From assembly GCF_002001085.1 (NCBI RefSeq), contig NZ_MUNU01000009.1, forward strand, positions 124,001 through 188,000: a stretch of DNA of 64,000 nucleotides. The letters are read 5' to 3'. A program made the translations under genes and the position numbers. The stretch comes from Rhodanobacter sp. B05 (GTDB taxonomy: Bacteria > Pseudomonadota > Gammaproteobacteria > Xanthomonadales > Rhodanobacteraceae). Below, one piece after another: positions 12,400 through 16,511 of this stretch (position 1 is its first letter; each line of letters opens with the position of its first letter). The notes under the pieces were generated by a model. It had not been told where the DNA came from. It searched no databases and saw nothing but the letters and a program-made list of their open reading frames with translations.

Positions 12400-12433
12400 A
12401 TTGGAGCGCCGCTGCATGACATCCCGATGACAG
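12400..12433 (-). promoter_or_regulatory. Candidate PhoB-dependent promoter of ppk
   Basis: On the minus strand 12433-12416 is CTGTCAT-CGGG-ATGTCAT, the best Pho box in the window (13 of 14 half-site bases match CTGTCAT). After exactly 10 bases comes TCCAAT (12405-12400), the same -10 as the pstS site. Transcription would start near 12394, leaving a leader of about 70 nt. Confidence 0.8.
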
Positions 12434-13027: not shown

Positions 13028-14147
13028 CGGGATATCCGCGTACCAGTGAGGTCAGCAGTTTCTCGAACTCGGCGATCACCGCATCCGGCGGGCAACGCAG
13101 GGCGGCGCGTCGCGCGTTGGCGCCCAGCAGCCGGCGCGTCTCGGGATCCAGGCCGAGCTGGTAGGCCGACGTGATGAAACCGCGCGCGTCCGTCGGCGGC
13201 ACGACCAGCCCCGAGACGCCGTTGGCGACGTGCTCCTGCGCTGCCGCATGGTCGAAGGCGACCAGCGCCAGCCCTGACGCCATCGCCTCCAGCACGACGT
13301 TGCCGAAGGTCTCCGACAGGCTCGGAAACAGGAACAGATCCGCGCTGGCGTAGTGTGCGGCGAGTTCGGCCTCGCGCTTTGTGCCGACAAACAACGCATC
13401 CGGGTAGGCGCTGGCCAGTGTCTCGTGCTGCGGGCCATCGCCGACCAGCACGATGCGCGAGGCGGGGCGGTGTGCGTGCAGGGCCCGGAACGCCTGCACG
13501 GCGAGCCCGAGGTTCTTTTCCGCGGCGATCCGGCCGACGCACAGCATCACCAGGGCGTCGTCGTGCACGCCCCAGCTCCGGCGCAATGCCGGGTCGCGCC
13601 GTTCCGGCGAGAACAGGGTGGTGTCGACGCCGCGGCGCAGCTTCTGCACGTGATCGATGCCGGCGTCCATCAGTTCGGCCTGCAAGGCCCTGGTCGGAAC
13701 CAGGGTCATTTGCGCGCGGCGGTGGAATCCCAGCAGGTGGTTGCGCACCAGCGGCGCCAGCAGTCCGATGCCGTAGTGGGCGGCGTAGTCGTGGAAGCGC
13801 GTGTGGAAGCCGGTCAGGACCGGTATGTCCAGGGCATTGGCCGTGCGCATCGCCGATGCGCCCAGCGGGCCCTCGGTCGCGATGTAGATCGCGTCGGGCC
13901 GCCGTGCGTTCCAGCGCCTGCGCAGCGCGTTGCCCGCGGGCAGGCCGAACTGCACGCTCGGATAGCGCGGCATGGCCACGCCACGTGCGCAGACCAGGCC
14001 GACCTTGCCGTCGCGACCGTCGGCGCCCGGCCGCACCACTTCGACTTCACAGTCGCGTGCGGCCAGGCCTTCGGCGAGCGTGCGCACGGTCAGGGCGACG
14101 CCATTCACTTGTGGTGGCCAGGTTTCCGTGACGAAGGTGATCCGCAT
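13002..14147 (-). CDS. GT4-family glycosyltransferase (candidate glycolipid synthase)
   Basis: A 381-residue GT-B enzyme. The N-terminal domain begins MRITFVTETWPPQVNGVALT, like sulfolipid synthase SqdX, MgtA and related diacylglycerol or mannosyl transferases. The C-terminal donor-binding domain has VGRIAAEKN and the E-x7-E motif ETFGNVVLE. I start at the ATG ending at 14147, which has GGGAGAG before it; upstream residues are not family-like. It is coupled to the PAP2 phosphatase by overlap and lies between ppk and phoR. A phosphorus-free glycolipid product fits this setting but is inferred. No Pho box faces this gene. Confidence 0.85.
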   Translation of the reverse strand: MRITFVTETWPPQVNGVALTVRTLAEGLAARDCEVEVVRPGADGRDGKVGLVCARGVAMPRYPSVQFGLPAGNALRRRWNARRPDAIYIATEGPLGASAMRTANALDIPVLTGFHTRFHDYAAHYGIGLLAPLVRNHLLGFHRRAQMTLVPTRALQAELMDAGIDHVQKLRRGVDTTLFSPERRDPALRRSWGVHDDALVMLCVGRIAAEKNLGLAVQAFRALHAHRPASRIVLVGDGPQHETLASAYPDALFVGTKREAELAAHYASADLFLFPSLSETFGNVVLEAMASGLALVAFDHAAAQEHVANGVSGLVVPPTDARGFITSAYQLGLDPETRRLLGANARRAALRCPPDAVIAEFEKLLTSLVRGYPDDHLRAVA

Positions 14148-14277
14148 CGCTGCTCTCCCGTCGGGACTGCTGCGGATCTTCGCGCTGTTGTATTGCACCA
14201 ACGCGACGGGGGCGTGACTCCCGTGCGCGACCTGCGCAGACCCTGGCGCCTGGCGCAGCTTCCGCGCAGTCCCATGC

Positions 14278-14311
14278 ATGTCATCGGCTTGTCATTCTGG
14301 AGCGTGACAAT
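14278..14311 (+). promoter_or_regulatory. Candidate PhoB-dependent promoter pointing at a non-coding region
   Basis: 14278-14295 is ATGTCAT-CGGC-TTGTCAT, two half sites each matching CTGTCAT at six of seven. Ten bases later GACAAT (14306-14311) fits a -10. The site faces right, away from the glycosyltransferase gene and into a region with no plus-strand gene, only a terminator 77 nt further on. Confidence 0.7.
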
Positions 14312-14317
14312 GCTTCT

Positions 14318-14419
14318 GCCTGTCGTGACTCCCCTCCATGGCAAGGCAGCTGGAGAAAGCCGCTCTCTCCCCTCCCCAATCGGCCTGCGGCGTGGATCCC
14401 TTCCACGCCGTATTTTTTT
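14318..14419 (+). ncRNA. Candidate PhoB-activated small RNA with C-rich loops
   Basis: Not annotated by homology; proposed from the sequence. Downstream of the Pho promoter, TGCCT (14317-14321) can pair with AGGCA (14344-14348), exposing a loop with CCCCTCC. GCCG (14359-14362) can pair with CGGC (14381-14384), exposing CTCTCTCCCCTCCCC. An intrinsic terminator follows (CGGCGTGG/CCACGCCG, 14388-14410, then TATTTTTTT to 14419). The layout, hairpins presenting CCCC-type loops that can bind Shine-Dalgarno sequences, resembles the Xanthomonas sRNA sX13. The only ATG inside (14338) opens a frame that runs through the terminator into antisense phoR, so coding is unlikely. Confidence 0.6.
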
Positions 14420-14447
14420 GTGCGACAGGCGCCTTCCGCATGAAGGC

Positions 14448-15731
14448 TCAGTCAGGCGATGCCTCGGCCCGGCTGCTGCCGTCGTTTTCCGGCGGCAGCA
14501 CGCGTGAGGCTTCCATCACGCAGGAGAAGGTCGAGCCCCGGCCGGGTTCGCTTTCGATGACCAGGCGGCTCTGGTGGAGGTTGAGCACGTGCTTGACGAT
14601 CGAGAGTCCGAGGCCGGTTCCGCCGGACTCGCGCGAGCGGCTGGAGGACACGCGATAGAAGCGCTCGGTGAGACGAACCAGATGCTCCGCGGAGATGCCC
14701 AGCCCGCTGTCGCGCACCGAGAAGACGGCTTCGCCGTCGGCGGTCTGCCGCCAGCCGATCACGATCTCGCCGCCGCTGGGCGTGTAGCGCACGGCATTGC
14801 TGACCAGGTTGGAGAAGGCGCTGTGCAGGTGGTGGATCGAGCCGCGCAAACGCGCCCGACTGCTCGCCTCGACGGTGATGCCATGCCTTCCCCGGCTGAG
14901 TGCCTCGGCTTCGCGACGCAGCGTCTCCAGCAGCGGGACCATGGCCACCTCCTCGTCGGGCAGGGCTTCACGGGTTTCCAGGCGCGACAGGGTCAGCAAG
15001 TCCTCGACGATCTGCCGCATCCGTTGCGATTGCATGCGCATCTCGCCGAGCACGGGAGCCAGTTCCGGGACGTCCGTCGGATCCAGCAGCTCCAGGTAAC
15101 CGTGGATGACCGTCAGCGGCGTGCGCAACTCGTGCGATACGTTGGCCACGAAATCGCGTCGCACCTGCTCCAGGCGACTGAGCGTGCTTATGTCGCGCGC
15201 GAGCAGCAGCCGCAGATGCGCGCCGAACGGCATCAGCGTCACGCTCAACCGCAGCGACGGATCCGCCGGGGCCGGCATGTCGGTGGCCGACTCGGCCATG
15301 TCCGTCTGCAGCCATGTGCCCAGCTCGCTGCCGGCCAGTCGCCTGGTCAGCGAGCCTTCGGGGTGTCGCTCGCGCAACCCGAGCAGGCGGGTCGCCGCCG
15401 CATTGAACCAGCGCACGTTTCCCCGGGCATCGAGCAGCACGACGGCATCCGGCAGGGCGCCCGCCGCATCACGTACGTCATGCAGCTGGGCCACCAGACG
15501 ACGACGTTTCTGTCTCTGGTCGGGGGAGGGGAGCGGCACATTTTTCGCGTCGCGGTCCGTCGCCTTCATGTCCACAACCAGCCATGCCAATGTGATGATC
15601 TGTCCGCCGAGAACCACGCCGAAAGACCACCAGCTCAGCCCCCACACCGCCGTCGCCACGGCAGCCAGCACCAGGGTGGCGACCAGGACGGCAGCAGGCC
15701 CAGTGGGAAACCCCGGATTGGCGTGACGCAT
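14448..15731 (-). CDS. phoR: Phosphate regulon sensor kinase PhoR
   Basis: Inner-membrane histidine kinase that phosphorylates PhoB under phosphate limitation. The 427-residue protein has two N-terminal membrane helices with almost no periplasmic loop, typical of PhoR, which reads the Pst-PhoU state instead of an external ligand. A PAS domain (about 95-190) follows, then H-box FVANVSHELRTPLTVIHGYL, N-box SNLVSNAVRY, G1 DSGLGI and G2 GGTGLGLSIVKH. It lies 15 nt downstream of phoB in the same operon. Confidence 0.95.
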   Translation of the reverse strand: MRHANPGFPTGPAAVLVATLVLAAVATAVWGLSWWSFGVVLGGQIITLAWLVVDMKATDRDAKNVPLPSPDQRQKRRRLVAQLHDVRDAAGALPDAVVLLDARGNVRWFNAAATRLLGLRERHPEGSLTRRLAGSELGTWLQTDMAESATDMPAPADPSLRLSVTLMPFGAHLRLLLARDISTLSRLEQVRRDFVANVSHELRTPLTVIHGYLELLDPTDVPELAPVLGEMRMQSQRMRQIVEDLLTLSRLETREALPDEEVAMVPLLETLRREAEALSRGRHGITVEASSRARLRGSIHHLHSAFSNLVSNAVRYTPSGGEIVIGWRQTADGEAVFSVRDSGLGISAEHLVRLTERFYRVSSSRSRESGGTGLGLSIVKHVLNLHQSRLVIESEPGRGSTFSCVMEASRVLPPENDGSSRAEASPD

Positions 15732-15746
15732 GCGCGGACTTCGCGA

Positions 15747-16451
15747 CTAGGCGCGCGCGGGCGCGGGGTGGGCGGAAAACCGGTAGCCCGTGCCGCGCAC
15801 GGTCTGTATCAGGGTGTCGAGGTTGCAGGCTTCCAGCGTCTTGCGCAGGCGGCGGATATGCACGTCGACGGTGCGCTCCTCCACGTACACGCTGCCGCCC
15901 CAGACGTGGTCGAGCAACTGGGCGCGGGAATACACGCGCTCGGCGTGCGTCATGAAGAAATGCAGCAGGCGATACTCGGTCGGCCCGATGGTGACCTGCT
16001 GATCGCCGGCGTACACCCGATGCGCCAGGCCGTCGATGCGCAGGCCGCCGAGGTCGATCATGCCCGAGCTGTCTTCGCCGTGGCTGCGGCGCAGCACGGC
16101 CTTGATCCGTGCCACCAGTTCGCGCGCGGAGAACGGCTTGACGACGTAGTCGTCGACGCCGGCGTCGAGCCCGGCGACGCGATCGGTCTCCTCGCCGCGC
16201 GCGGTGAGCATGATGATCGGCAGTTCGCGGGTCAGGTCGTCCCGGCGCAAGCGCCGCGCCAGATCCATGCCGCTGATGCCCGGCAGCATCCAGTCAAGCA
16301 GGATGAGATCGGGAATCTTCTCGGCGATCGCCAGCTGCGCCTCGCCGGCATCGCCGGCGGTGACCGGCAACATGTCCGCCTTACGCAGCGCGAACGCCAC
16401 CATGTCGCGGATCGGGGCCTCGTCTTCGATGATCAGGATGCGCTTTTGCAT
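15747..16451 (-). CDS. phoB: Phosphate regulon response regulator PhoB
   Basis: DNA-binding activator of the Pho regulon. The 234-residue OmpR-type protein has a receiver with acidic pocket IIEDEA, phospho-acceptor Asp in [10 protein letters not shown] and Lys in VVKPFS. A winged-helix domain follows ([20 protein letters not shown] ... [13 protein letters not shown]). It should bind the CTGTCAT-type repeats found upstream of pstS, the porin, ppk, the candidate sRNA and possibly its own gene. Confidence 0.97.
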
Positions 16452-16477: not shown

Positions 16478-16511
16478 ATGGCAGCACGGTAATATTACGC
16501 GAGGATGACAG
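16478..16511 (-). promoter_or_regulatory. Weak candidate Pho promoter of phoBR
   Basis: On the minus strand 16511-16494 is CTGTCAT-CCTC-GCGTAAT. The first half is perfect, the second matches only four of seven. TGCCAT (16483-16478) follows at the same 10-bp spacing seen at the other Pho sites. Autoregulation of phoBR is common in other bacteria, which supports the call. Confidence 0.45.

Follow-up and report, generated by a model that had tools for sequence, protein, structure and literature searches.

The window of this study, i.e. the whole 64-kb stretch of Rhodanobacter DNA that was analyzed, contains the gene of a small RNA (sRNA) which represents a real and apparently new RNA family with a conserved Pho promoter. 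The gene is probably a free-standing member of the Pho regulon that is activated by PhoB, and its product would act in trans and repress mRNAs with G-rich ribosome-binding sites, likely including that of a CsgG-like gene. Conservation in related genomes had been set beforehand as the test for such a gene: promoter, paired arms, loop and terminator were found to be conserved with covariation in 68 loci of several genera. The observation lies far above chance.

The comparison is based on two alignments. The sequence-only alignment A2 comprised 40 of 51 loci (five duplicates and six short matches were left out), and its 40 sequences were used to build covariance model R1. Alignment A4 comprised 68 loci, 67 of them distinct: the 40 of A2, nine new R1 loci (the other 21 of the 30 listed were already included) and 19 further fetched loci. 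The latter came from 20 further R1 places that were read, a part of all such places, with L154 left out as a chance match. The admission limit of A4 was stricter than that of alignment A3 and shut out three spurious rows. Locus L162 and the divergent loci of the g28, g29 and L251 type were read and kept outside A4.

Genomic setting of the sRNA gene

The initial annotation had placed the sRNA between a glycosyltransferase gene and phoR. This setting holds with corrected bounds: by sequence reading the intergenic gap extends from 14148 to 14447, since the minus-strand glycosyltransferase gene begins at 14147. On the other side lies the convergent neighbour of the sRNA gene, a phoR-like sensor kinase gene on the minus strand (14448-15731; HisKA, HATPase_c and PAS domains), next to a phoB-like response regulator gene (15747-16451, minus strand; Response_reg and Trans_reg_C domains) for the proposed activator. 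The name PhoB was chosen because the gene adjoins phoR and lies near ppk, and has no specific model behind it. According to a domain search, ppk, a PAP2 phosphatase gene, the glycosyltransferase gene, phoR and phoB form a phosphate cluster around the sRNA gene.

There is no plus-strand gene in the gap, as had been stated before; the plus-strand ORFs 13353-14507 and 14338-14658 overlap the minus-strand genes. Open frames crossing the region on this strand would speak for a small protein encoded in the RNA. However, 48 of the 68 homologs have no closed ORF within the RNA and the remaining 20 vary in length (2-31 aa), for which reason a conserved peptide was rejected. Furthermore, the changes between the homologs preserve pairing. 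A coding role is thus hardly credible.

On the opposite strand of the aligned loci the radC motif was present in 62 of 68 and phoR in four, with neither in two. All four phoR-adjacent copies (the window, L003, L012 and L013, whose genomes gave one DNA match each) had an intact promoter and terminator. The occurrence at two loci with both elements intact fits an autonomous unit, and judged by these neighbourhoods the gene appears to have travelled as a whole between the radC and phoR loci. Regulation of the neighbouring genes, which had been considered earlier, is unlikely, because the gene is not tied to phoR (64/68 loci without an adjacent phoR). In genus g40 the loci L037, L040 and L042 carried GGCCATSSATGGCCGC-type repeats downstream of the terminator, close to the sRNA.

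Pho box and promoter

The plus-strand Pho box TGTCATCGGCTTGTCAT is located at 14279-14295, one base shorter than first annotated (14278-14295). It consists of two TGTCAT half-sites with an 11-base period and is an exact match. The -10 element GACAAT (14306-14311, plus strand) follows at the standard distance, as had been proposed, with 10 bases between the Pho box and the -10. The arrangement is that of Pho-regulon promoters, with two TGTCA-type half-sites 11 bases apart in place of the -35 and the -10 about 10 bases downstream of the box. A promoter scan for a -35 hexamer gave no match, as expected if the Pho box replaces the -35.

The pattern TGTCAY-N5-TGTCAY had two exact sites in the 3.8-Mb assembly, namely the sRNA promoter and the upstream region of ppk, and the reversed control pattern had none. 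With up to two mismatches allowed the pattern was found 270 times vs 184 times for the control, which is mostly noise. The perfect box of ppk, TGTCATCGGGATGTCAT, is located on the minus strand at 12416-12432, approximately 90 bases upstream of the gene. A looser Pho-box-like site, CTGTCATCCTCGCGTAAT, was found upstream of phoB (16494-16511, minus strand), a sequence that suggests autoregulation of phoB.

The promoter was conserved throughout A4. In 68/68 aligned loci the best site in the expected window agreed with 9 or more of the 12 half-site bases, and in the same maximised scan none of 1428 upstream flank windows reached 9/12, the maximum being 8. Outside the promoters, six positions scored 10 and 48 scored 9 among 421,008 in the whole loci on both strands; therefore the Pho motif alone is not unique. 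The GTC of the first half-site was invariant and the second half-site was conserved in 59 to 68 of 68 loci per position, with little information in the positions further upstream of the box. The -10 was conserved in 68/68 as well, position 2 being always A and position 6 always T. Based on these sequence features, activation of the sRNA gene by PhoB is very likely.

Structure of the RNA and terminator

The predicted sRNA spans 14316-14419 on the plus strand. Its 5' end at about 14317 is deduced from the -10 and its 3' end is the T run. The RNA 14311-14425 folds at -43.8 kcal/mol (z = -3.59), and 0 of 200 shuffled sequences folded as well. Together with the covarying structure this is in line with the folded product of about 100 nt that had been predicted. 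Model R1 scored 91 bits in the own genome, whose sequence is among the 40 rows behind R1.

Four elements can be distinguished, all on the plus strand. Hairpin 1 (14316-14349) was given by single-sequence folds of the window RNA and of the first 10 of 40 sequences, and all eight modelled pairs showed double-sided changes in A4. Its loop, ACUCCCCUC (14328-14336), here named loop 1, is the proposed pairing seed; CUCCCC was present there in 66 of 68 loci, and the mean unpaired probability of CCCCUC was 0.97 in the fold of the window RNA. The second element is helix S1, GGAGA/UCUCC (14352-14356 with 14366-14370), with double-sided changes in 4/5 pairs. It interleaves with the third, helix S2, GCCG/CGGC (14359-14362 with 14381-14384). 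Between the S2 arms lies a second C-rich single strand, CCUCCCCAAU (14371-14380), with CUCCCC or CCUCCC in 59 of 68 loci. The fourth is the intrinsic terminator at 14386-14419, with a stem at 14386-14412, seven T residues and double-sided changes in 5/9 pairs. It is a strong one; its start had initially been annotated at 14388. Terminator-like sites numbered two in the region 13500-15000 vs a shuffled mean of 0.9, the other being a 5-pair stem at 14171.

In A4, 92.3% of cells paired and 20 of 27 pairs were changed on both sides. Double-change cells numbered 193 vs 56 in shuffles and 13-40 with slid partners. Hairpin 1, S1 and the terminator guided the fitting of A4, which therefore leans towards those helices. 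S2, to which A4 was not fitted, paired in 98.5% of cells, with double-sided changes in 2/4 pairs and an additional inner pair in one third of the sequences. For S2 alone the double-change cells were 11 vs 5.3 in shuffles and at most 7 in slid controls, two of which exceeded S2 in covariation score; pair types were not more numerous. For hairpin 1, the outer stem paired in 68% of the A2 cells. RNAalifold on A2 drew S2 and the terminator and paired the CUC of loop 1 with the GAG of S1; hairpin 1 was not drawn.

The left arm of S2 is located inside the loop of S1 and the right arm beyond it, so that both helices together would form an H-type pseudoknot. In a simple test of H-type loop lengths 63 of 68 sequences passed. 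The energies of S1 and S2 taken separately were similar in most Rhodanobacter, and S2 was favoured by several kcal/mol in some other genera. Since each helix alone has a similar energy in most Rhodanobacter, a switch between the two predicted helices is as possible as a pseudoknot.

The two hairpin loops with CCCCTCC proposed in the initial annotation were thus found in part. The first CCCCTCC begins in loop 1, its last C being paired. The second (14369-14375) is in a loop only under the GCCG/CGGC fold; the minimum-energy fold uses its first two bases to close the helix 14352-14356/14366-14370 and leaves the rest mostly single-stranded. In most members the second C-rich stretch is placed in the candidate pseudoknot rather than in a plain hairpin, and in the g29 and g28 loci that were read the element resembles a plain hairpin with a C-rich loop.

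The conservation of S1 and S2 bears on the partner of the RNA. In Rhodanobacter and a sister genus both helices are at least as conserved as the loop, and a pseudoknot is unusual in a plain antisense sRNA. This would suit a PhoB-controlled sRNA that chiefly binds a protein or the ribosome, with the pseudoknot-like element and the C-rich strand titrating an RNA-binding protein. However, the stem of hairpin 1 changes in a compensatory manner around a loop that stays C-rich and exposed, which fits base pairing. Moreover, CsrA-type sponges carry GGA repeats, and these were not seen in the window RNA. We regard such a partner as unlikely and prefer pairing with mRNAs.

The position of the terminator was considered as well. 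The gene is convergent with phoR in the window and with radC in L008, and in L251 (genus g31) C-rich hairpins and a terminator were found beside radC without a Pho box. It is conceivable that the element is chiefly a transcription end for radC or phoR or that its promoter is under another regulator than PhoB, and we give this reading a low probability. As a transcription end for these genes the T run would be misplaced, since it is on the plus-strand exit of the stem, and the conservation of hairpin 1, S1, S2 and the Pho box would be left unexplained. Against another regulator stand the same box at ppk and the related site upstream of phoB. In L251 the promoter has possibly been replaced, as far as the sequence tells. 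With conserved structure, compensatory changes and its own terminator, the gene has the features of an intrinsically terminated intergenic sRNA.

Distribution of the sRNA

A DNA blast gave a match in 32 of 60 genomes, i.e. the own genome, 31 of 35 other Rhodanobacter and none of 24 from other families. The match was thus present in 32 of 36 Rhodanobacter genomes and absent in four, one of which is 79% complete. G001, the one of the four that was searched with the covariance model, had no match there either.

With R1 at E<=0.01, matches were found in 76 of 197 Rhodanobacteraceae genomes and in 17 of 26 genera, with no match in 121 genomes of the family sample; the 76 are not a clean count, because chance matches within the family were seen (L154, L163, L164). 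The same plan with very different sequence was present in the genera g21, g22, g32, g36, g37, g39 and g40, where 20 stretches and ten loci were read. A broader model, R2, applied to an order sample of 200 genomes, added the genera g29 and g28. In the six g29 loci and one g28 locus that were read, radC was adjacent in all; the Pho box was clear in the g28 locus and in five of the six g29 loci, and weak in L244.

Outside the family, an earlier covariance-model match, L161, was without a Pho box. R2 matched genomes of other families as well, 25 of them at E<=0.05, with a best value of 5.5e-4. Loci of seven of these 25 were read and had neither the radC motif nor the Pho box; the matches were all taken as chance. 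A scan with the sRNA pattern gave 25 stretches: 20 from Rhodanobacter, one from Dyella, three from unclassified or Lysobacteraceae MAGs and one from a Geobacteraceae MAG. The contig carrying the last one, L118, is perhaps mis-binned. Additionally, L050 and L051 contained in their middle a near-identical match of 24-25 bases to the loop-1 region, TTGACTCCCCTCCATGGC, within an apparent further small transcription unit that perhaps belongs to a mobile element.

Comparison with Rfam families and sX13

In the covariance search suggested by the initial annotation, the relatives from Rhodanobacteraceae were matched, and no Rfam family reached the gathering cut-off, whether in the 64-kb window or in the 16 homologous loci searched. 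Of the 12 sub-threshold Rfam matches the best, tfoR, scored 19.6 bits vs a cut-off of 70 and aligned best at the terminator stem; it was rejected.

The sRNA sX13 of Xanthomonadaceae had been named as a counterpart with C-rich loops. Through these loops, and apparently independently of Hfq, sX13 represses mRNAs that carry GGGG motifs close to the start; it is located at polA, as described in the cited passages (PMC3771888). Both RNAs have stem-loops with C-rich loops and a terminator, at approximately 115 nt and 100 nt, respectively. The new sRNA differs from sX13 in its radC or phoR locus, its sequence, its pseudoknot-like two-helix element and its Pho-box promoter. The shared plan and a weak score of 10.6 bits with RF02232 (sX13) would be compatible with a paralog or ortholog of sX13 whose Pho box is incidental. 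This score is below the curated cut-off of 50, though, and the own genome contains a better RF02232 match of 41.9 bits, itself below 50, beside polA. Upstream of this match there is one TGTCAT, without a further half-site at the proper distance, and no sequence intermediates between the two families turned up incidentally. Membership in sX13 was rejected on the score, the non-polA locus and the separate sX13-like gene at polA, and kinship is very improbable. The likeness proposed earlier holds for the plan of C-rich loops and not for orthology.

An aacttt-N16-ctaa-like pattern, which we take to resemble an envelope-stress (sigma-E) promoter, was found upstream of the Rhodanobacter sX13-like matches, in L070 and most of L055-L081; it was not obvious in L052-L054. 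These upstream regions were read in 30 loci, with L074 and L080 in the wrong orientation, and the adjacency to polA was established for L070.

Candidate targets

The initial annotation proposed pairing of the C-rich loops with Shine-Dalgarno sequences and a target prediction on this basis. In the own genome GGAGGGGAG had 16 sites vs 8 for the control, the sRNA gene itself accounting for two of the 16. After inspection of these 16 sites a CsgG-like gene (Pfam CsgG) was picked, whose ribosome-binding site carries 10 nt of loop-1 complement. Half of the genus sample, 20 of 40 genomes, carries the gene. Nineteen homologs had a readable start; GGAGGGGA occupied the ribosome-binding site in 17 of them, where the complement to loop 1 measured 8 to 16 nt, and the site was absent in the other two. 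The homologs share ancestry, their starts were self-called, and G002 with its csgG match in two pieces is excluded. In 15 of the 17, those with an sRNA sequence from the same genome, the complementarity is to the loop of that genome's sRNA. Among 255 control starts, crudely called, none had at least 7 nt of loop-1 complement. Pairing with the anti-SD of 16S rRNA gains nothing from the bases beyond GGAGG, and their retention therefore speaks for a partner other than 16S rRNA.

A second contact, of the C-rich linker with the leader of the CsgG mRNA, was not established: among 15 genomes with the loop-1 site and an sRNA sequence, the complement measured 8-9 nt in three and 3-6 nt in the other 12. 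Complementarity was thus conserved for loop 1, which gave the CsgG-like candidate, and not for the second stretch. A link in presence was unconvincing: all four sRNA-less genomes among 36 lack csgG (P = 0.052).

In the own genome, GGGGAG was located 4-10 bases before ATG 122 times vs 27 times for the reversed pattern. By this count the genome may have a considerable number of G-rich ribosome-binding sites, which makes the target specificity of loop 1 less clear-cut. As judged from the complementary sites, the CsgG-like export or outer-membrane gene is a good lead for a target of the sRNA in Rhodanobacter.

Proposed function and comparison with phosphate-linked sRNAs

From the features above we infer a transcribed, PhoB-dependent sRNA that pairs with its target and represses it. 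In low phosphate, phosphorylated PhoB would bind the Pho box standing in for the -35, transcription would start near 14317 and RNA polymerase would stop at 14419. The resulting RNA of about 100 nt would show the CUCCCC-type sequence in the loop of hairpin 1 and hold the second C-rich strand in or beside the two-helix element, be it a pseudoknot or a pair of switching hairpins. The exposed loop could then pair with G-rich, GGAGGGGA-like ribosome-binding sites of chosen mRNAs and block their translation. Repression by C-rich pairing is likely by analogy and is the simplest reading, because sX13 works by the same chemistry.

Activated genes make up most of what is known of the Pho regulon, and such an sRNA would add a repressing arm to it. 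In the Fur regulon a nutrient regulator uses an sRNA, the Hfq-dependent RyhB, to repress genes. RyhB responds to another nutrient and has the opposite sign of control, and no sequence relation is claimed.

Links between phosphate and sRNAs have been described before. EsrL of enteropathogenic E. coli is a reported phosphate-induced sRNA with PhoB binding reported upstream, as cited in PMC10294691; in E. coli K-12 no such binding could be detected (PMC10294691). It shares the link to phosphate with the new sRNA and comes from an unrelated organism. In Synechocystis 6803 the transcript PsiR1 is induced by phosphate depletion and is missing in the sister strain 6714 (PMC5386190); the cyanobacterial RNA comes without a C-rich-loop model in the cited description. 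Several intergenic sRNAs with a putative PhoB site as promoter were predicted in Sinorhizobium meliloti, where the transcripts rising in phosphate starvation had no evident PhoB site (PMC2573895). Finally, a PhoB-induced sRNA acting on E. coli rpoS is cited in PMC8829014. The earlier statement that a Pho-controlled version is not known thus applies to sRNAs with C-rich loops in these passages, while Pho-linked sRNAs have been reported or predicted elsewhere. Among the matches listed in a literature search, mostly outside subscription journals, no title or beginning of an abstract describes this RNA.

A conserved Pho-box sRNA across many genera would be the repressing arm of the Pho regulon in Rhodanobacteraceae, comparable to RyhB for iron. 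It also offers a candidate link between phosphate starvation and surface export, and a cell in which two C-rich-loop sRNAs under different switches can be compared cleanly. More tentatively, and with some doubt on our side, a pseudoknotted C-rich sRNA might throughout the family repress genes of surface and secretion functions, the CsgG-like gene first, beside an envelope-stress sX13-like sRNA with overlapping targets. If true, one pairing chemistry would serve two signals, phosphate and envelope stress, on overlapping G-rich targets.
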